Source: a virus. Taken from it: 64,000 bases of DNA. A program made the translations under genes and the position numbers. How positions within the stretch are numbered: position 1 is the stretch's first letter; each line of letters opens with the position of its first letter. Shown here piece after piece: positions 23,844 to 41,685 of this stretch. Location: IMG/VR virus record IMGVR_UViG_3300027782_000025, positions 186,001 through 250,000 of that record; one strand, 5' to 3'. The notes below the pieces were generated by a model. The model ran no database searches and was not told where the DNA came from. It was given only the letters and a program-made list of their open reading frames with translations.

Positions 23844-24144
23844 TCCAACTATCATGATTATTATATCGATGCTGATGATTATGATGTCACTGATTATGAT
23901 ATTACTAGTACAATCGACCATATTACTTAATAAGATTATTAATGCTGAGGAAAAGCAGCCGAAGCTTGTTGATAAACAACAAATTATAGGCTATCAACAA
24001 TCATCGCTTGAAAAAGAACCTGTAAAAAAATTCGATACTTTAAAAGTGCCAGATTTGGATCCATTTTCTATAGCGCCTAATTTAAAAAAACCACCAAAAT
24101 CAGCTGGTGGTTTTGGAAATAAAACAGATCAAAATGATCCATGA
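23836..24144 (+). CDS. Small single-pass membrane protein (102 aa)
   Basis: Residues 5-32 form one strongly hydrophobic Met/Ile/Leu-rich segment after a four-residue start, so this is probably an N-terminal membrane anchor. The remaining 70 residues are polar, Lys- and Pro-rich, and likely cytoplasmic and disordered. It overlaps the glycosyltransferase-like gene by 8 bases and the actin-like gene by 11, so the three are probably translated together. A membrane adaptor for the actin-like ATPase is one possibility; a holin/spanin role is less likely given the long charged tail. No family recognised. Confidence 0.6.
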   Translation: MSDPTIMIIISMLMIMMSLIMILLVQSTILLNKIINAEEKQPKLVDKQQIIGYQQSSLEKEPVKKFDTLKVPDLDPFSIAPNLKKPPKSAGGFGNKTDQNDP

Positions 24145-25657
24145 TTTTTCGATAAAAAAACAGGTAAATGATTCTAAGCTGATTACTCAAAAACCGAAAG
24201 TTCCAGAGTTAATTATTAAGGCACCTGTTCATATCATACCTGTCATTGCGCCGATCAAAATCGAAGCCAAGCCCACAATATTGAATGAAAAAACCATTCA
24301 AAAACCGATTCCTATTGTGCCCATCGATAAACCAGCCGAAAAGCCGGAAAAAACAAAGCACTTGCTATCAGGCGACATAATCCCCGATGAAAAATATGCC
24401 GAATATCATAAAAACATTTATGACAAGAAATATTATGAAGCAGTTAAGACAAAAGATGACTTAGTGTTAGGCACATTTGAGACCCCTCCTAAGATCAAAT
24501 CTTTAACTAAAGATGGTGTAGTATATAGAATGGGCGATTTAATTTCTCTCGAAAGGAAACCTATCATGCCGCATCTTGGCCTTGACATTGGCACTAAAAC
24601 GATCGTAGCTTCATTTAAGAACAAGAACGGTGATATAAATTATATATCTGAAATTAATGGGTTTTGGCCTTTCGAAAGAGCCACAGCATTTATTGAAAAC
24701 ATGCTTAAAGATCCAACTAAAGTTAGATCCGACGGCACCAGTAGGCCAGCACATTATTTTAAGCATGAAGAATCAAATCAACTAATCGTGCTTGGACGAG
24801 ATGCTGAAGAATTAGCCTATTCAAAGAATGATACGATGAAAAGACCAATGGCTGAAGGCGGAATTACACCAGATGAAATGTCTATGACGGTGCTGAGCAG
24901 CATCATCCATGGGATCTTAGAGACCGCAGAACGCGATGTTGGTAAGTTTGATAATAATTTGACATTGTGTTATTGCACGACAGCACCGGCTTTAAATAAA
25001 ACAAATAATATTGAATATCACGAAAGAGTTATCGATATCATCCTTAAGAGTTATAACTCACAGAGTGCTATAAAACTTCAAAAGATAAAAGAAAGTCATG
25101 CGATAGTTCTAAACCAAAGCCCAGACGGCTCTGGGATCGGCATCAGCTGGGGAGCAGGCACGGTAACGGTGACATATGTTAAGTATGGCTTAGAAGTTTA
25201 TAGTTTCTGCTGGGTTGGCGCTGGTGACTGGATAGACGAGAATGTAGCGATTAGACATGGCTATGATGCACATGCTATGAAAAGCATGAAAAAGAACAGT
25301 AAGGAAACTCCAACCACAGTATCAAAAGTCAAAATGGACATAGATCTTACCCCCGGCATACAGTATGCCGACAGGCTTCAGTTAGATATATCGCTGCACT
25401 ATGACGTGCTTATTAATCAAGTAGTGTCAGGTATCGTGGCCGGTTTTAAGGAAAATGAGGCGCAGGCAAGAATCGAAAATGGCATTAATGTTTATATGGC
25501 TGGCGGCACTAGCAGTCCGAAGGGCTTTGCTGAGCGTGTGGCTTTAATATTCAATAATAATGAATTACCTTTTGTTTTAAATAAAGTATCTGTGGCAGAA
25601 AAGCCACTATTTACCGTTGCGGCAGGGTGCTTGACAGCAGCAGAGATGTTCGAATAA
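24134..25657 (+). CDS. Actin/Hsp70-superfamily ATPase with disordered N-terminal extension
   Basis: The motif order of the MreB/ParM/DnaK fold is present: phosphate-1 LGLDIGTKTIVAS (about residues 149-161 from this start), phosphate-2 GIGISWGAGTVTV (about 334-346), VGAGDWIDENVA, and the adenosine motif MAGGTSSPKGF (about 455-465). ESHAIVL before phosphate-2 also fits. The first 145 residues are Pro/Lys-rich and probably disordered. A GTG 27 bases upstream (24107) is an alternative start, but the ATG at 24134 gives a normal 11-base overlap with the membrane-protein gene. Such proteins polymerise for DNA segregation or positioning, or act as chaperones. Context (membrane peptide upstream, replication genes downstream) suggests intracellular organisation of phage DNA or membrane-linked assembly. 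The fold is well supported; the role is inferred. Confidence 0.72.
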   Translation: MIHDFSIKKQVNDSKLITQKPKVPELIIKAPVHIIPVIAPIKIEAKPTILNEKTIQKPIPIVPIDKPAEKPEKTKHLLSGDIIPDEKYAEYHKNIYDKKYYEAVKTKDDLVLGTFETPPKIKSLTKDGVVYRMGDLISLERKPIMPHLGLDIGTKTIVASFKNKNGDINYISEINGFWPFERATAFIENMLKDPTKVRSDGTSRPAHYFKHEESNQLIVLGRDAEELAYSKNDTMKRPMAEGGITPDEMSMTVLSSIIHGILETAERDVGKFDNNLTLCYCTTAPALNKTNNIEYHERVIDIILKSYNSQSAIKLQKIKESHAIVLNQSPDGSGIGISWGAGTVTVTYVKYGLEVYSFCWVGAGDWIDENVAIRHGYDAHAMKSMKKNSKETPTTVSKVKMDIDLTPGIQYADRLQLDISLHYDVLINQVVSGIVAGFKENEAQARIENGINVYMAGGTSSPKGFAERVALIFNNNELPFVLNKVSVAEKPLFTVAAGCLTAAEMFE

Positions 25658-26337
25658 TGAATATAATTCATGTCGATGGTAGTTTGGTAGCTATTTTAAT
25701 AAAAGAAACTATATATATCATCGACATGGATAATTTTACGGTCCATGACCAGATTGGTGCACGGCTAGCTATCCAAAACATTGATGACTGGTTATTTAAA
25801 AACACCTTATGGGCTCATGGCATTTTTAATTTAAAGCTTTTTGTTAATTTCTTCTTACAAGGACGTGAATCTATAGTAATTAAAGACTTAGGCGTTTTAC
25901 TGTCAGAATTTATCGCTCACCTTTTTAAAAATGATCAGATCGGCCAATTGTTGAAAATGTATGATGTTGAATTACTAAATTTAGAAACAATTGACAGAGT
26001 AGTCTTACCTAATCTTAGAGATAATTTTGAAGCACACCGTCTAAAAAATGGTGAATTAGGTCTCGAATTGTTCCTTAGAAGACTAAGAGACCGAATCGCT
26101 ATATTAAATCCAAACGAAACCAGAGTCATTGATAGCTTTCTAAGTAGGTTAAAAGAGCAGCATGTCGATATAAAGATGGCTATACCCGATGGCCTTTTAG
26201 AACTAGCGAATAATTTTTTATGCACGCAAGATGTTTATACTTCTAACATAAGATACCCCAATATCATCGAATCTTTTGAGAAAATTAAAGCTCCAAAAGG
26301 TAAGAGAAATGGATTAGAAACCGTATTATCTTCATAG
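25657..26337 (+). CDS. Unknown protein upstream of the split polymerase (226 aa)
   Basis: The ATG overlaps the stop of the actin-like gene (TAATG), so I prefer it to an upstream in-frame GTG at 25627. The N-terminal 60 residues look like beta strands (NIIHVDGSLVAILI, TIYIIDMDNF); the rest is helical with many Leu, Arg and Glu, including a region ELGLELFLRRLRDRI. No catalytic motif or known family was recognised. Translational coupling to the ATPase and the 13-base gap before the polymerase gene place it in the same transcription unit. Confidence 0.55.
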   Translation: MNIIHVDGSLVAILIKETIYIIDMDNFTVHDQIGARLAIQNIDDWLFKNTLWAHGIFNLKLFVNFFLQGRESIVIKDLGVLLSEFIAHLFKNDQIGQLLKMYDVELLNLETIDRVVLPNLRDNFEAHRLKNGELGLELFLRRLRDRIAILNPNETRVIDSFLSRLKEQHVDIKMAIPDGLLELANNFLCTQDVYTSNIRYPNIIESFEKIKAPKGKRNGLETVLSS

Positions 26338-26350
26338 TATAGGAGATAAT

Positions 26351-27751
26351 ATGGAATATCAAGGTTCATCAGATTTTGTTCATCTTCACTCTCACACACT
26401 TTATAGCATGCTTGATGGTGTGGCCTCTCCGGCCCAATATGCCGAAGCTTGTTATAAAAGGAAGTACCAAGCGATGGCTATCACCGAACACGGCCATATG
26501 GCCAGTGTTCCTGAAGCTTACGCTGCTTTTAAACAATATGGTATCAAATACATCCCTGGGTGCGAAATATACTATAATGATTTTGAACTAAAAAGGCAAG
26601 AGCTTTTGGCAAGCGGAATAAATGTCAGATCGCTAGAATGGAGAAAAGAGAATCCAGAGCTAGCAGGAAGAATTATCAGAAATAGACATCTCACAGTAAT
26701 TTGCAAAAACAAGACCGGATTTGAAAATCTCTTAAAGTTAACAACTCAAGCATATGAGACAGGCCTGTTCGGCGTATCTATTAAACAGTATAATCGCATA
26801 TGGTTTGAAAAGTTATGTGAATATCGCGAAGGACTTATTATATTATCAGGATGTCTAAATGGACCTATAAGTCATGAATTGCGTACTAAATCGATAGTAA
26901 ATAAAGCAGGCGATGTCATCAGAGAAATAAGCCGAAAAGAAAGGCTTGAAAACGCTATCGCCAATATAAAAAAATTTAAAGAAGCGTTTGGAGAAGACTA
27001 CTACATAGAACTACAGATGCCTGGTGTTGAAGGCGACATGTTTGTGTTTCAGACATCTATTATGCTGGCAGACCATTTCAAGATTAAGACCGTGCTGGCT
27101 AATGATTCTCATTACATGGAAAGAAAAGATTTTCAAATCCAAAAGATCATGATGGCGATAGCTCAAGACGTAACTGTTGACTCTCCTGATTTATTTCATA
27201 CAAACAGCGACGAGCAATACTTCAAACAGCGTAGTGAATTATGGAGTAGATATAATGAGACTGAATATTCCAAAGGGTATACGGCTAGAGAATTCGAACT
27301 AATGTGTGATCATACTTTAGAAATAGCCGACAAATGCGAAAATATCGAATTTGATACGGATCCAAAAATACCGACCATCGTAGACGCTGATAATGAATTA
27401 CGGCGCTTGGTCGCATCAAAGCTTATATCGTTAGGACTTCATAAAAATGAACAAAAACACTTGATCGATGGTAGAGAAGTTACCTATCTAGACCAAGCTA
27501 AAATCGAATTAAATCGTTTTATAGAAAAAGGTTTCGCCAGCTATTTTCTCATTACTAAGAATATTATAGAGTACGGTAAAGAACAAGGTTGGCCGTTCAC
27601 TGCTAGAGGTAGCGCTGGAGGCTCCTTAATTTGCTACTTATTAAATATTACATCAGTCGACCCTCTTTCGTGGGGTCTTTCTTTTGATAGATTTCTTGCA
27701 CCGAGCCGCGGTGGCTATATGCTTAATGTCAAGATGACTAAAGGAGATTAG
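26351..27751 (+). CDS. DNA polymerase III alpha (DnaE), N-terminal fragment: PHP domain plus start of palm
   Basis: The first 290 residues form a PHP domain with HLHSHTLYSMLDG (His 11, 13, 15) and ITEHGHM (Glu 46, His 47), which in DnaE binds metals and may proofread. VLANDSHYM, the YLDQAKIEL helix from residue 379, and the palm motif ARGSAGGSL at 418-426 follow, the last binding the dNTP phosphates in C-family polymerases. YLLNITSVDPLSWGLSFDRFLAP matches the family segment that should lead straight into the catalytic PDIDID motif. Instead the frame ends 14 residues later with an unrelated tail. The catalytic aspartates are in the gene at 29018. SD TAGGAG precedes the ATG. This is a genuine split gene rather than a simple frameshift, because 1.3 kb and three small genes separate the halves. 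Confidence 0.88.
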   Translation: MEYQGSSDFVHLHSHTLYSMLDGVASPAQYAEACYKRKYQAMAITEHGHMASVPEAYAAFKQYGIKYIPGCEIYYNDFELKRQELLASGINVRSLEWRKENPELAGRIIRNRHLTVICKNKTGFENLLKLTTQAYETGLFGVSIKQYNRIWFEKLCEYREGLIILSGCLNGPISHELRTKSIVNKAGDVIREISRKERLENAIANIKKFKEAFGEDYYIELQMPGVEGDMFVFQTSIMLADHFKIKTVLANDSHYMERKDFQIQKIMMAIAQDVTVDSPDLFHTNSDEQYFKQRSELWSRYNETEYSKGYTAREFELMCDHTLEIADKCENIEFDTDPKIPTIVDADNELRRLVASKLISLGLHKNEQKHLIDGREVTYLDQAKIELNRFIEKGFASYFLITKNIIEYGKEQGWPFTARGSAGGSLICYLLNITSVDPLSWGLSFDRFLAPSRGGYMLNVKMTKGD

Positions 27752-27752
27752 C

Positions 27753-28184
27753 TTGCAGAAGTATTTATTACACGCTTTGAACACACATTTAAAAGTCATG
27801 CAAAAGCCTACTGAAACATTATGTGTATTCTCGCTTAAATTCATCGATGTTCTTATAGATGACGATAAAGTCAGAGCTGAGAAAGAATCACTAGATTTGT
27901 TAATAAATATTCAAAATAATATAATTTCTAGCATTGTCGAAACTATTGACCGCCTAGAGAAAGAAGCTACCGATTCTACTAAAGTACTGGGATCGGCGAT
28001 GCTTAATACAAGAAAATCTATTTATTCTCATACAATAAATTTAAAATTAGTAGATGTAAGTAATCTAGAAGATAGATATAACAAAGCTATAGTTGAAATC
28101 GCTAAAGCGATGAGGTTATTTAATCTTTGTGGTCTTTCTGAAGCAATTAAAATAAATGATGTAAATGGGAACCAGATATGTTAG
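27753..28184 (+). CDS. Unknown small protein inside the DnaE split (143 aa)
   Basis: The TTG start lies one base after the stop of the DnaE N-fragment and has a strong SD, AAAGGAG, 6-7 bases upstream, so the rare start codon is credible. The product is mostly helical and charged (IISSIVETIDRLEKEATDSTK), with no recognised motif. It overlaps the next gene by 7 bases. It could be a structural partner of the split polymerase, but nothing in the sequence proves that. Confidence 0.55.
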   Translation: MQKYLLHALNTHLKVMQKPTETLCVFSLKFIDVLIDDDKVRAEKESLDLLINIQNNIISSIVETIDRLEKEATDSTKVLGSAMLNTRKSIYSHTINLKLVDVSNLEDRYNKAIVEIAKAMRLFNLCGLSEAIKINDVNGNQIC

Positions 28185-28624
28185 AGATGCAAATAAATAG
28201 ATTAGATAATTCCAAGATTAATTCTAAAATCGTCGTTACTTTAATAAAAAATAATGGCAAAAAAATGAAGACCCAACGGCGTGATATCGCTTTTAAATTG
28301 AAAATGACTGATGATACCATATATAAGTATCAAGCTATCCTAGTTGGTCTATCTGCGATAAAAGATGTTAATCAATCGATAAGAATCAGCATGTTGGGGT
28401 TTGAATCGAATGATTTATATGGTACATCAAACGATAAACAGCTATATTTCGACGAATTAAAAAGACGTATTATCAAAATATGCCAACGTCATAATAATGT
28501 ATTTTTTGATGCTAATATGATAGCTTTAGATAATGATTATGTCAATATAATTAAAAAGTATTTAGTATCACAATCAGAGTACCATGATACCGGTACAGTC
28601 TTAATCGATAAATCTAAGGTTTAA
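28178..28624 (+). CDS. Unknown small protein inside the DnaE split (148 aa)
   Basis: ATG start overlapping the previous stop; GGGA lies upstream. The product is basic in its N-terminal half (KNNGKKMKTQRRD) and mixed helix-strand after that. No conserved catalytic signature was seen, and it is not a homing endonuclease of the LAGLIDADG, GIY-YIG or HNH kinds as far as I can read. It is followed by a 62-base gap containing only a 17-codon open frame. Confidence 0.5.
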   Translation: MLEMQINRLDNSKINSKIVVTLIKNNGKKMKTQRRDIAFKLKMTDDTIYKYQAILVGLSAIKDVNQSIRISMLGFESNDLYGTSNDKQLYFDELKRRIIKICQRHNNVFFDANMIALDNDYVNIIKKYLVSQSEYHDTGTVLIDKSKV

Positions 28625-28686
28625 TACTATGGCTGTTTGGCACAACACAAGCTTAGATCTTTTTATGTATATTGAGATATAAAATT

Positions 28687-29031
28687 ATGGATCATAAAGG
28701 TGAATATGATAAATATGCTTTCATTATAATGGAAGCGCAAACCGATAATATTGTCAACATAGTACGATTAAAGTCGAACGAAGAAAGACTGAAAACCATT
28801 AAAAGCATACGTTCTAAAGGGCAATATTTATTTTACGCTATGACGCACCAAGACGAAAAAACCAAGAGGGTCACTATAAAAAGGCCCTTTGTCGTCGATT
28901 TTGATTCAGTTCCTTCAGCTGAGGAATCAAAATGTATTGAAAATGATATAAAGAAGCTTAGCTGCAAAAAATGTGGCAAAAGTTTTACTTCTACTTCTGG
29001 GCTAACGAACCATCTAAATGCAAAACATTAA
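28687..29031 (+). CDS. C2H2 zinc-finger protein inside the DnaE split (114 aa)
   Basis: The C-terminus holds a classical zinc finger: CKKCGKSFTSTSGLTNHLNAKH has the spacing C-x2-C-x12-H-x4-H with the Phe and Leu core residues of the eukaryotic TFIIIA type. This spacing is uncommon in phages. The N-terminal 85 residues are a compact alpha/beta region (YAFIIMEAQTDNIVNIVRL) without a recognised family. I use the ATG at 28687, preceded by GAGAT, over a TTG at 28672. The gene overlaps the DnaE C-fragment by 14 bases. A DNA-binding or protein-bridging role for the polymerase is possible; this is inference. Confidence 0.65.
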   Translation: MDHKGEYDKYAFIIMEAQTDNIVNIVRLKSNEERLKTIKSIRSKGQYLFYAMTHQDEKTKRVTIKRPFVVDFDSVPSAEESKCIENDIKKLSCKKCGKSFTSTSGLTNHLNAKH

Positions 29032-31741
29032 ATCTTGGGAAGAAATTGTCGAAAAGGCTGGAGAGTTGGTTACCGATAAACCGAAGATTTATAAAGACAG
29101 ACTAAAATTCGAAATATATGAAATCGAAAAGCAAGGGGCAGAACGCTACTGGTTAGAATTAGTGACTGATGGAACGACTTTCGATGCAAACCCGAATCGT
29201 CTATTACTACCATACCTTTTAAATCTAGTTTCTGTCGACCCAATCTCCACAGACCATAGCGGCATCATGACAAGCATATCTGCCAATGATGTTTTAAAAT
29301 ACAAAGACCATAACAATGGTAAAATGCCAACAGGAATCTACAGAGATTCTGACATGCCGGACATCGATATAGATTGCTTGCCTGGGGCCAGAGATCATTT
29401 AAAAGAATACGTAATTTCTAAATATGGCCAGAATTCAGAAGATAGTTATGGATCTGTATGTAGCGTTGGCACATGGCAAACTTATAAATTCAAATCTGCA
29501 ATAATCGATGTCTCTGTGGCTCTTGGAATAATGTCTAGATTTGATGCCGAAAGAACGACCACACAATTACCAGAGCACGCAGATGATTTGCCGGAAAATG
29601 GTATATCAGTCTGCAGAGGTAAATATTTAAAGGAAGGTGTCGAGATAGAATGTGGCACTATTCACGGTGATGCTACTTGCCCATCTTGTAAGCAATCCAT
29701 CACGGATGCTCCGACTATTGGTCAGCTTATTGAAGAACTACCAGTTCTCAAAGAATTCGCGATAAAAAACCCTGAGATCATAGCATCAGCGATCAAACTA
29801 GTAGGCAGAATTAGAAACATGGGCATGCACGCCGGTGCTTTACTAATAACAGACAGAGCGTTGTTTGGCAATATACCTATGGCCAAGAGCAGTAATAAGG
29901 GCTATTGGGTAAGCATGTGGACAGAAGGTAGAAGCACCCAGCTCTCAAAATTTGGGTATGTGAAATGGGACTGGCTTGGTCTTAAAACCTTAGAATATAT
30001 ATTTAGGTGTTGCGAGATGGTTAAACTTAACCGCGACATCAATTTTGGCGAAAATTTGTCTGGCTGGGAAGACATCGATCCTAAGCAACGTAAAGCCGGC
30101 TTTTTTATCGATGCTTCTGGTGTTAAACACATTATCAGCCTCGACGACGAAGGGGCTCTAAAGCTAGCAAATAAGCAGAAATGCGATGGTATTTTTCAGT
30201 TCGACACTGAATTAGCCATGTCTTTGCTGGCTCATGGCGTTAGGAATTTCGAAGACTTAATGTTAATCAATGCGATGGGCCACCCAGGGCCAATTGCCGC
30301 TCTACCAGAGACAATGGCAAATCGTGACGATCCCACGATGGCATGGAAAAAACGCATGCATCCAGAAGTCTATAATATTCTTAAAGAAACTTATGGACAA
30401 CTGGTTTATCAAGAGCAATTAACGCAGCTTTGGCAGAGATTAGCTGGATTTACTGCGCCTGAAGCTCAAGAAACGAGGAAGGCCGTTGCTAAGAAATGGA
30501 CACACAAATTAAGAAGCGTAGAACAGAAATGGGTCGCTGGTGCTTCTAAAACCATCGGCGAAGACGAAGCTCGCACTATTTGGTCCAAAATGGTATCATT
30601 CGGTCGTTATGCATTTAATAAATCACATTCTGTAGCTTATTGTTTGGTAACCCTACGATGCTTGTTCCTAAAAGCGCATTTTGCGCCTGAGTTTTGGGCA
30701 TCTGTCATGAATGATTGCCATCCAGATAAGCTGGTACGTTATATGGGTGTTGCAAGATCAGAAGAATGGAAACCGACAGCAATCACTAAACTCGGTTCGA
30801 GCAGATCAGATGATCCATTGCGCTTTGAAGCTATCGACATTAACAATTTATCATTAAAGTTTATAGTAAAAGATAACACGATATTTGTTGGTGTCAGTAG
30901 CATAAAAGGCTTTGGCGAAAAAATAGCTGAGTGCTTAATCACTGCACACAAATATATAAACATGGATGATTTTATTTTAAAGACCGGGATAAAATCTAAA
31001 ACAGTGTTAGAACGGTTAATTAAACTTGGGGCCTTTAGAAATCTTGAAAGACACAATAATAGCAAGGCTTTGTGGGTTTATTATCAAACGAAGTATGGCA
31101 ATGGGCCAGATGCAAAAGAGACTAAAAGCTTCATCTCCAACCTCATTATTTCTAAACAAGGATGGAATGATGGCTCTATTGCGGCTGAGAGGGAAAGACT
31201 CGCCAGTGAATACAGATTGATCTATCCAAAGAAAAAAGTTATACCTAAAAAATTACTTAATTGGAACCCTGAACCGATCATCGATTTTGATGCCGTTCTT
31301 GGCGCTATCGGAGATGATTTTAGTTTTGAAGAAAGACTACAATTTCAGAACGATTACTTAGGATATTACATCGACTCGCCTCTAGGATTATTTAGTTGCA
31401 GGGGTGATCTAACGATTGCTGCAGCAAAGACAAATGCTAAGTCCGGCCAAGACATCATAGCTATCGAAGGAATAATTGTAAATATAGAATATGCTACATC
31501 AAAGAATAATAAACCGTACGCTAAAATATCGACATCAGATGGTATGTTAAAAACCAGTATTATGGTGTGGTCCAAAGAATTGTCGGGGTTAGATAAAACC
31601 AAATTGATGATTGGCGCCGGAATTAGAGTGATCGTGGATTATGATGGCGAGCGAAATAGTTTTTCATTACGACGCAATACTTCGATAAACATACTGAAGA
31701 GAAAGCCAACTAATGCAACTGCCGACGAAAGACGGGATTAA
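29018..31741 (+). CDS. DNA polymerase III alpha (DnaE), C-terminal catalytic fragment (907 aa)
   Basis: MPDIDIDC supplies catalytic Asp115 and Asp117, and VKWDWLGLKTLE the third, Asp318. MGMHAGALLIT, GIFQFDTELAM, AMGHPGP, YGQLVYQEQ and AFNKSHSVAYCLVTLRCLFLKAH match the DnaE palm, fingers and beta-binding regions in order, and the C-terminal 110 residues look like an OB fold. Residues 25-80 resemble the end of the N-fragment (a helix like YKDRLKFEIYEIEKQG, then PYLLNLVSVDPIS), but the GS phosphate-binding motif is replaced by NPNRL. Four Cys at 199, 212, 221 and 224 form a probable zinc-ribbon insertion. In the cell this fragment should act with the product of 26351-27751. No intein residues are visible at either break. 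No 3'-5' exonuclease subunit was found nearby. Confidence 0.9.
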   Translation: MQNIKSWEEIVEKAGELVTDKPKIYKDRLKFEIYEIEKQGAERYWLELVTDGTTFDANPNRLLLPYLLNLVSVDPISTDHSGIMTSISANDVLKYKDHNNGKMPTGIYRDSDMPDIDIDCLPGARDHLKEYVISKYGQNSEDSYGSVCSVGTWQTYKFKSAIIDVSVALGIMSRFDAERTTTQLPEHADDLPENGISVCRGKYLKEGVEIECGTIHGDATCPSCKQSITDAPTIGQLIEELPVLKEFAIKNPEIIASAIKLVGRIRNMGMHAGALLITDRALFGNIPMAKSSNKGYWVSMWTEGRSTQLSKFGYVKWDWLGLKTLEYIFRCCEMVKLNRDINFGENLSGWEDIDPKQRKAGFFIDASGVKHIISLDDEGALKLANKQKCDGIFQFDTELAMSLLAHGVRNFEDLMLINAMGHPGPIAALPETMANRDDPTMAWKKRMHPEVYNILKETYGQLVYQEQLTQLWQRLAGFTAPEAQETRKAVAKKWTHKLRSVEQKWVAGASKTIGEDEARTIWSKMVSFGRYAFNKSHSVAYCLVTLRCLFLKAHFAPEFWASVMNDCHPDKLVRYMGVARSEEWKPTAITKLGSSRSDDPLRFEAIDINNLSLKFIVKDNTIFVGVSSIKGFGEKIAECLITAHKYINMDDFILKTGIKSKTVLERLIKLGAFRNLERHNNSKALWVYYQTKYGNGPDAKETKSFISNLIISKQGWNDGSIAAERERLASEYRLIYPKKKVIPKKLLNWNPEPIIDFDAVLGAIGDDFSFEERLQFQNDYLGYYIDSPLGLFSCRGDLTIAAAKTNAKSGQDIIAIEGIIVNIEYATSKNNKPYAKISTSDGMLKTSIMVWSKELSGLDKTKLMIGAGIRVIVDYDGERNSFSLRRNTSINILKRKPTNATADERRD

Positions 31742-32255
31742 ATGCGACGGCTGCGGGCTTCAGTTTCATGAAGATTTTACTTATTATTCGATAGATTTTA
31801 GAAGCGCTAAATCAAAATTTGGGCAACACTTATCATTGAGAGATCTAGACTCAGCACCAATGGTCGACACTTTTGATTATTGCAGTATGTGTTATGAGAA
31901 ACTCCAAGACAAGATAGTAGAAATAAACCAAAAAACATCTCAGAAAACTGGCTCAAGATATTGTGATCTTTCTGGACAAGATCTGATGCAGTTAAAAACA
32001 TATTACTATGCTACCATAACTGGAGCTACAGTCAAACAAACAGGTGTACCATTTACTTGTGAACAGTGCGGCCTTCAAGCGCACACCCCGACAACAGTAT
32101 GTAAGTGCGGGTCGGTTAAATATGTTAGGAAAGCCGACGTACATACTGATAAAAAATTAATAGAAATCTTCATAACACCAGATATATTTAATAGCTTTGC
32201 CGTTAGAAGAGAAAAGCATAAACAAGAAGGAAGTAATTGGAATGTTACCAGCTAA
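31713..32255 (+). CDS. Zinc-ribbon protein with two Cys clusters (180 aa)
   Basis: Two metal sites are visible: CDGCGLQFH pairs with CSMCYE, and CEQCGLQAH pairs with CKCG. The start overlaps the polymerase C-fragment by 29 bases, which ties its expression to the polymerase. The function is unknown. Such ribbons usually bind nucleic acid or partner proteins. Confidence 0.6.
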   Translation: MQLPTKDGIKCDGCGLQFHEDFTYYSIDFRSAKSKFGQHLSLRDLDSAPMVDTFDYCSMCYEKLQDKIVEINQKTSQKTGSRYCDLSGQDLMQLKTYYYATITGATVKQTGVPFTCEQCGLQAHTPTTVCKCGSVKYVRKADVHTDKKLIEIFITPDIFNSFAVRREKHKQEGSNWNVTS

Positions 32256-40485: not shown

Positions 40486-41685
40486 ATGAAGCCAATTCTA
40501 TTCGCTATCAAAAGAGGAAGACAAGTCGCATATCCAGCCATCATAGGTATTAAACGCGACCAAAAGATTTACAAGCAAATCCTTTTTGATAATAGCAACG
40601 CAAAATCTATAAGCGATATAAGGATTGACCAGTCCAAGATAAAAGCATTATTCGACCATGCGGTTAGCACCAGATGCGCGATAGTCACCAACGATCGCGC
40701 ATCACTGATCGCCGCTATGGGTTATAACAATAGAGCTATCGCCGACAACATCTTCGATCATAACGAAATAATTCATGAAACAAGTGCCCTCGATGAATTT
40801 TTAGCATCAACAGATGCTTCCGTTCAAGAACCATATAAAAAGCTATTGTTTGACGCTGGGTGCGTTTATGATAAACTCTCTGACTTGCCAATTTATGTAA
40901 ATTACACTCCTCTTAAGTCATCTTGGTCACATGACACATTTACTGGCAGGAGCAAGTGCACAGGTTTTAATATTCAAGGCTATAACATGCCTGATTTTAT
41001 CACAAGGGACGGGATCTTCGAAGATAAAGTATTACTGCATTTCGACTGGATCTGCGCTGATCTAAGAATAGCATCAGTTGTATCAGGAGATGATGAATTA
41101 GAATCAGCTTTTAGGCATGGTGATCCATACGAGTATCTTTTTGATCGCGCAGGGGACATGTTTACTGATCGCAAGGATAGCAAAATAGCTCTACTTAAGG
41201 CAATAAATTCTCTGAATTTTGATAGTAGCATATTTGATATATGCTATGGAGATCTTAGAACTTGGCTTATAGAGTGCGCCCATAAGCTTACTGAGAGTGA
41301 ACCCTTGGAGACATTGCTGGGCCGTAAATTTATTATCCCAAAGGAAAAGACCATATTATCAGGTATTAATGGTGTTCTGCAAGGATCTATAGCCCATGCT
41401 ATGCAGAACACCATTACGAAAGTTAATGCTTTATTTCCAAGACATATTATATGTGACATCCATGATTCTCTAGTAATGTCTTGTGAAAACGACCGAAGTA
41501 GCATACAATATATGATAAATAGTGTAAAATCGATAATGTCGAAACCGCTTGAAGGGCTGATAGATAGGGATATATATTTTCCGTTAAGATACGGCATTGG
41601 CAAGAAATGGCGAGAATATAAATATAGTAATATACAGAGGGAACATGAACAACAAGAAACTGCAGAAGATACGTCAGAGGGCTAA
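40486..41685 (+). CDS. Short family-A (Pol I-type) DNA polymerase-like protein (399 aa)
   Basis: Family-A polymerase signatures occur in order: SKCTGFNIQGYNMP (like PNLQNIP); motif A LLHFDWICADLRIASVVSGD with catalytic Asp187; a motif-B-like helix ending in LLKAINSLNF; TLLGRKFIIP; NGVLQGSIAHAMQN (the N-x2-QG-x-A segment); and motif C ICDIHDSLVMS with catalytic Asp327. The usual HDE is HDS here, and the motif-B Arg is not where expected. The thumb and any 3'-5' exonuclease are missing, so the protein is about 180 residues shorter than a Klenow polymerase core. Both catalytic Asp remain, so activity is possible. It coexists with the split DnaE. A repair or translesion enzyme, or a degenerate polymerase subunit, are the alternatives. 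Confidence 0.75.
   Translation: MKPILFAIKRGRQVAYPAIIGIKRDQKIYKQILFDNSNAKSISDIRIDQSKIKALFDHAVSTRCAIVTNDRASLIAAMGYNNRAIADNIFDHNEIIHETSALDEFLASTDASVQEPYKKLLFDAGCVYDKLSDLPIYVNYTPLKSSWSHDTFTGRSKCTGFNIQGYNMPDFITRDGIFEDKVLLHFDWICADLRIASVVSGDDELESAFRHGDPYEYLFDRAGDMFTDRKDSKIALLKAINSLNFDSSIFDICYGDLRTWLIECAHKLTESEPLETLLGRKFIIPKEKTILSGINGVLQGSIAHAMQNTITKVNALFPRHIICDIHDSLVMSCENDRSSIQYMINSVKSIMSKPLEGLIDRDIYFPLRYGIGKKWREYKYSNIQREHEQQETAEDTSEG

Follow-up and report, generated by a model that had tools for sequence, protein, structure and literature searches.

How a replicative polymerase can work when its gene is cut through the catalytic centre is the question raised by two dnaE genes of a virus record from IMG/VR (IMGVR_UViG_3300027782_000025). 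The window, the whole stretch of 64,000 nucleotides that was analyzed, corresponds to positions 186001-250000 of this 274,625-base record, and the two genes, N and C, lie between its positions 26,351 and 31,741. Judged by their domains and residues, N and C together appear to make up one C-family DnaE, the alpha subunit of DNA polymerase III (Pol III). Enzymes that are split are mostly cut between domains. In this case, the cut runs through the catalytic palm of a full-length and apparently proofreading-competent replicase and parts the nucleotide-holding residues from those that hold the metals. The likely product is an obligate two-subunit DnaE with an active site assembled in trans from N and C, an enzyme that probably works only once two different proteins join.

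Division of dnaE within the palm

The initial annotation described a DnaE split into two genes, and two open reading frames (ORFs) of 466 and 907 amino acids (aa) indeed carry its parts. The following features bear on the split:

26351..27751, + strand: putative N subunit of DnaE (PHP and first palm half), 466 aa; Pfam PHP 7e-36 and DNA_pol3_alpha positions 14-98
27485..27670, + strand: N segment doubled in C, N residues 379-440; Smith-Waterman score 61, z 8.1
27608..27625, + strand: GSAGGS, the phosphate-binding GS motif of the palm, N residues 420-425; invariant in seven aligned N rows of the family
29018..31741, + strand: putative C subunit of DnaE (palm-like head, catalytic strand, thumb, fingers, HhH, OB), 907 aa; Pfam DNA_pol3_alpha 99-260, fingers and HHH_6
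29018..29353, + strand: C-head, a degenerate copy of the palm ahead of DxD, without GS motif or strand, C residues 1-112; hhalign E 1.2e-6
29090..29248, + strand: C segment matching N 379-440, C residues 25-77
29357..29374, + strand: PDIDID with the catalytic aspartates D115 and D117, C residues 114-119; invariant in family and bacterial rows
29960..29983, + strand: VKWDWLGL with the third catalytic aspartate D318, and K316; invariant in family and bacterial rows

The PHP, fingers and HhH domains follow each other across N and C in the order expected of DnaE, the best PDB folds for C are those of Pol III alpha, and a Shine-Dalgarno AGGAG precedes the ATG of the N gene. The Pfam DNA_pol3_alpha model (260 positions) is divided exactly at 98/99, and the break sits within the palm, with the triphosphate-binding GS half in N and the metal-binding DxD strand in C. 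While N does end beyond the GS motif as annotated, with its stop 41 residues past it (C-terminal end ..GGYMLNVKMTKGD, then the stop), C does not begin just before PDIDID but 113 residues ahead of it. The residue set of a DnaE, the GS motif and three aspartates in a Pol beta-like palm, is complete for N and C jointly and incomplete in each chain, and an intact dnaE was not found in the genome of the window. Since the GS motif is invariant in N, the three aspartates are invariant in C and neither chain is complete, the active site would most simply be formed from both chains.

In the proposed enzyme, N would supply the PHP nuclease, probably for proofreading, together with the palm half holding the incoming triphosphate. 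C would supply the strand whose two aspartates bind metal, along with the third aspartate, the thumb, fingers, HhH and OB. Most likely, N and C would pair through the palm and so complete the active site in trans, and the C-head, an old copy minus the GS loop, most likely caps or docks the interface, probably packing against the palm or the N chain. From sequence and models we infer this assembly, the polymerase activity and the role of the head. M. tuberculosis DnaE1 has an active PHP exonuclease with nine metal ligands, D23 and D226 among them, and N retains the residues aligned to these, so that proofreading may be built in.

The palm-like head of C

The likeness between N 379-440 and C 25-77 had been noted before, and shuffled sequences reach a Smith-Waterman score of only 24.6 +/- 4.5, with 1 in 1000 as good as the observed pair. 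This similarity is clear in four of the 13 genomes tested (the window, L004, L006 and L029) and not significant in most of the others, and BLASTP of the two segments returns only SVDPLS/SVDPIS at E 0.14. A profile of 17 C-heads matches 74 intact DnaE palms with E 1.2e-6 and a score of 39.5, compared to at most 21.8 for 300 column-shuffled heads. In two relatives, Pfam PF07733 continues through the C-head (profile 5-260 and 6-260). The AlphaFold2 model of C (pLDDT 82.7) places head helices at residues 7-18, 23-39, 42-51, 63-67 and 89-98; those at 23-39, 42-51 and 63-67 followed by the strand 115-120 reproduce the order expected for palm helices, but without the GS loop and the strand that goes with it. 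Because of the intact-palm profile match, the Pfam run-through and this helix order, the C-head is identified as a degenerate palm half, and its homology is secured through intact DnaEs, not by direct comparison of the N and C segments. As proposed earlier, the GS motif is confined to the N copy, and neither the motif nor an equivalent was seen in the C-head of any family member. A search for the C-head among isolated phages gave no match at E 10. MAFFT repeatedly aligned the C-head onto the N segment, which affected two alignments.

The mean block score of the C-head was 19.3 against the N segment of its own genome and 19.0 against those of other genomes. A recent duplication of the window's own N segment is not supported, as the C-head is no closer to it than to the others, and the doubling is therefore older than the family. 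Block scores of 18.0 were obtained against N segments versus 24.1 against intact DnaEs. From the suggested partial duplication followed by splitting, the degenerate second palm segment and the split itself stand, but the block scores do not show the order of events. The doubling could equally stem from two different dnaE copies, each of which lost one half.

Conservation of the split and selection

The phages with the split are giant phages of one family. The same split is shared by all 19 related viral contigs with both halves, which belong to one clade, in agreement with a split conserved in relatives, and the IMG/VR relatives at 36-95% identity all carry it in identical form. Among the members read, the end of N falls no more than a few residues from ..GGY.LN..MP, and 108-120 residues of C precede PDID. 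Viral, phage and genome collections yielded no unsplit relative above about 25-30% identity. In the tree, 16 split C rows make up one side of a branch with a support of 100/100 and a long stem; one outgroup row is very long-branched.

On contig L044 (156,696 bases), N (143805-145271, +) and C (85322-87916, -) lie 56 kb apart on opposite strands. This arrangement excludes cis-splicing, read-through and frameshift there, and the two halves therefore act in trans. Between the window and L004, dN/dS amounted to 0.012 in both parts of N, 0.064 in the C-head and 0.023 in the rest of C; purifying selection acts on N and C as well as on the extra segment. The correlation between the pairwise distances of N and those of C is 0.93 (Mantel p 1e-4).

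Alternative explanations

An assembly error is ruled out by independent assemblies and by a whole clade sharing the split, including the distant halves of L044. A frameshift, already doubted in the initial annotation, is ruled out by conservation of the split in the 19 contigs with other genes between the halves, of which three complete ORFs are found in the window. An intron or a cryptic split intein joining N and C into one chain is most improbable. Such an event finds some support in insertions at this very codon site in Bacillus phage G and Alicyclobacillus phage KKP_3916 (a group I intron in the latter), and in split inteins at other DnaE sites within this phage family. Still, a search at thresholds up to E 5 detected no Rfam intron family in 26300-31800 of the window, its two sRNA/snoRNA matches being due to chance, and no homing endonuclease was recognized in the gap of the window or its cassette. 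Split-intein parts (Cys/Ser start, His-Asn end) are absent at the break in the window, where N ends just past the palm and C starts with the palm-like head; this bears out the earlier remark that intein residues are not seen. The genes between the halves are complete and unrelated, the C-head is coding sequence under selection and its start is conserved, and the opposite strands of L044 largely refute splicing unless trans-splicing is invoked.

It appears very unlikely that the split alone is real and the extra segment lacks homology to the palm. The BLASTP result would fit this view, and so would the direct family-profile comparison of the N segment with the C-head, which remained at chance with a score of 13.1 (shuffles: mean 11.4, maximum 20.3) and counts against the two-subunit reading with its doubled segment. 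Against these stand the score of the C-head with intact palms, the Pfam model running through it in two relatives, the z of the window pair and its collinear position immediately ahead of DxD. Further points limit the two-subunit reading. The binding of N to C is inferred indirectly, and the N palm and C folded as one stretch with the stop read through gave a poor model (pLDDT 50, pTM 0.38) that shows no joined palm but speaks neither for nor against pairing. In addition, a 399-aa family-A polymerase is encoded at 40486-41685 in the same genome, with homologous matches in five of six relatives checked, and the role of main replicase might thus fall to an enzyme other than the split DnaE. The two chains might also have separate jobs, with N as a stand-alone PHP nuclease and C as a polymerase using its own head for the missing half. 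This is unlikely: the head does take the position of the absent palm half and is subject to selection, but no member has a GS motif or an equivalent in it, the invariant GS motif kept in N would be needless for a nuclease, and N and C coevolve in distance. Comparably doubtful is a regulatory C-head, which would block the palm of free C until N displaces it, the exchange of subunits switching the polymerase on.

Comparison with known systems and origin of the break

Split Pol III alpha is already known in jumbo phages. Members of group 2.2, e.g., Agrobacterium phage Atu_ph07, carry a split minimal Pol III alpha that has been described in general terms (Iyer et al. 2021, PMC7824862). Atu_ph07 shares the cut between the nucleoside triphosphate-binding and metal-binding halves of the palm (N ..DLDFSEFLE, C MKNIPDIDIDF; Pfam boundary 98/99). 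While its type is minimal and PHP-less, with genes far apart and a C lacking the extra palm-like head, the window family is full-length, with PHP in N, a 907-aa C with fingers, HhH and the head, and genes that are usually neighbours. The Atu_ph07 type is accompanied by a family-B polymerase, whereas none (PF00136) was found in the window's record and six relatives, records that may be fragments. As far as the literature searched shows, the full-length PHP form, the conserved doubled palm segment, the conserved cassette and the recurrent break site are new. Bacterial DnaE1 (M. tuberculosis 7pu7 and 5lew; Taq 2hpi and 4iqj) has the same domains, catalytic residues and intact PHP metal ligands in a single chain.

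In Bacillus phage G, the break in dnaE (gp329, gp330, gp331 and gp339) falls precisely at LP|DIDIDF and holds a homing endonuclease ORF; no Rfam intron was found there. With an intein at the GS motif and no doubled palm segment, it looks like an interruption by mobile elements and not like a fixed two-subunit enzyme. The same dnaE is also broken before the third catalytic aspartate (VKFDILGL; L173:4188-11509), with gp331 and gp339 seven genes apart. In phage KKP_3916, a group I intron (RF00028, 70.6 bits) lies just before the DITVDID strand of dnaE, again with no doubled segment. These insertions at the same codon site suggest a mobile-element origin, and by this analogy insertion at the DxD codons is the likely origin of the break. 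Insertion seems to have struck the DxD codons repeatedly, and in the window family the break there became fixed, together with a doubled segment. Fractured genes with split inteins were reportedly described by Dassa in 2009. They likewise leave a polymerase in pieces, but the palm split of the window has neither intein halves nor an endonuclease. The PolB of MIJ3 is another large-phage polymerase whose gene is in pieces, with split inteins (PMC6892783).

Insertions or splits at this codon site occur in at least four phage lineages, i.e., the window family, Atu_ph07, phage G and KKP_3916. This recurrence makes it testable whether an enzyme of one chain can become an obligate heterodimer through mobile elements that home to active-site codons. 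A Pol III alpha that naturally comes in two parts could further serve as a practical tool for switchable DNA synthesis.

PHROG 7513 was considered as an N-only family and rejected, its best members being PHP genes of actinophages and the polymerase of a Staphylococcus phage, which is unsplit. In the actinophages Terapin and Papyrus (L143:5004-8636 and L144:4995-8616), the PHP and polymerase parts of DnaE are in separate genes with a different split site.

Gene cassette between the halves

Three genes separate N from C in the window:

27753..28184, + strand: orfA, conserved in its place between the halves; homologues in 13 loci, including beside C in L044 with N remote
28178..28624, + strand: orfB, a probable divergent RNase H-like protein; matched to the L005 RNase H-like protein by iterated profile (E 0.012)
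28672..29031, + strand: orfC, a C2H2 zinc-finger protein; Pfam zf-C2H2 1.4e-5; homologues in 13 loci

The 3' end of orfC overlaps the start of C by 14 nt. An RNase H-like gene was found at nine loci, in addition to the weak match for orfB of the window and L004; the L005 protein is itself a sub-threshold match to Pfam RNase_H (E 0.065). In L044, orfA and the RNase H-like gene remain upstream of C despite the remote N, and the cassette therefore belongs with C.

Other polymerase and intein observations

Inteins exactly at the GS motif of DnaE (RG|C..N|SAGGS) were found at L016:7944-11920, L036:779-2734, L040:1459-3540, L045:2796-3131 and L173:734-3043 (Bacillus phage G). The intein of L016 is itself split, with a DUF790/TnsA-like ORF between its halves. 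Split inteins within C at YAFN(R/K)|C..|SHAVSY occurred at L014:11668-16335, L016:12806-16753 and L017:11424-16148, their halves separated by an ORF of about 510 aa with weak likeness to Vsr, and DnaE is spread over at least four ORFs in some relatives.

A second, unsplit, PHP-less minimal DnaE-like protein (561-588 aa; GS and PD[IF]DID) is encoded at L148:3914-5599 (-), L147:875-2641 (-) and L152:2359-4086. Its hosts are two split-family genomes and the huge phage LR756508, and it is absent from the window's record. Two genes upstream of N, at 24107-25657 of the window, lies the gene of a Volactin-family actin-like protein (Pfam PF25216, 7e-38).
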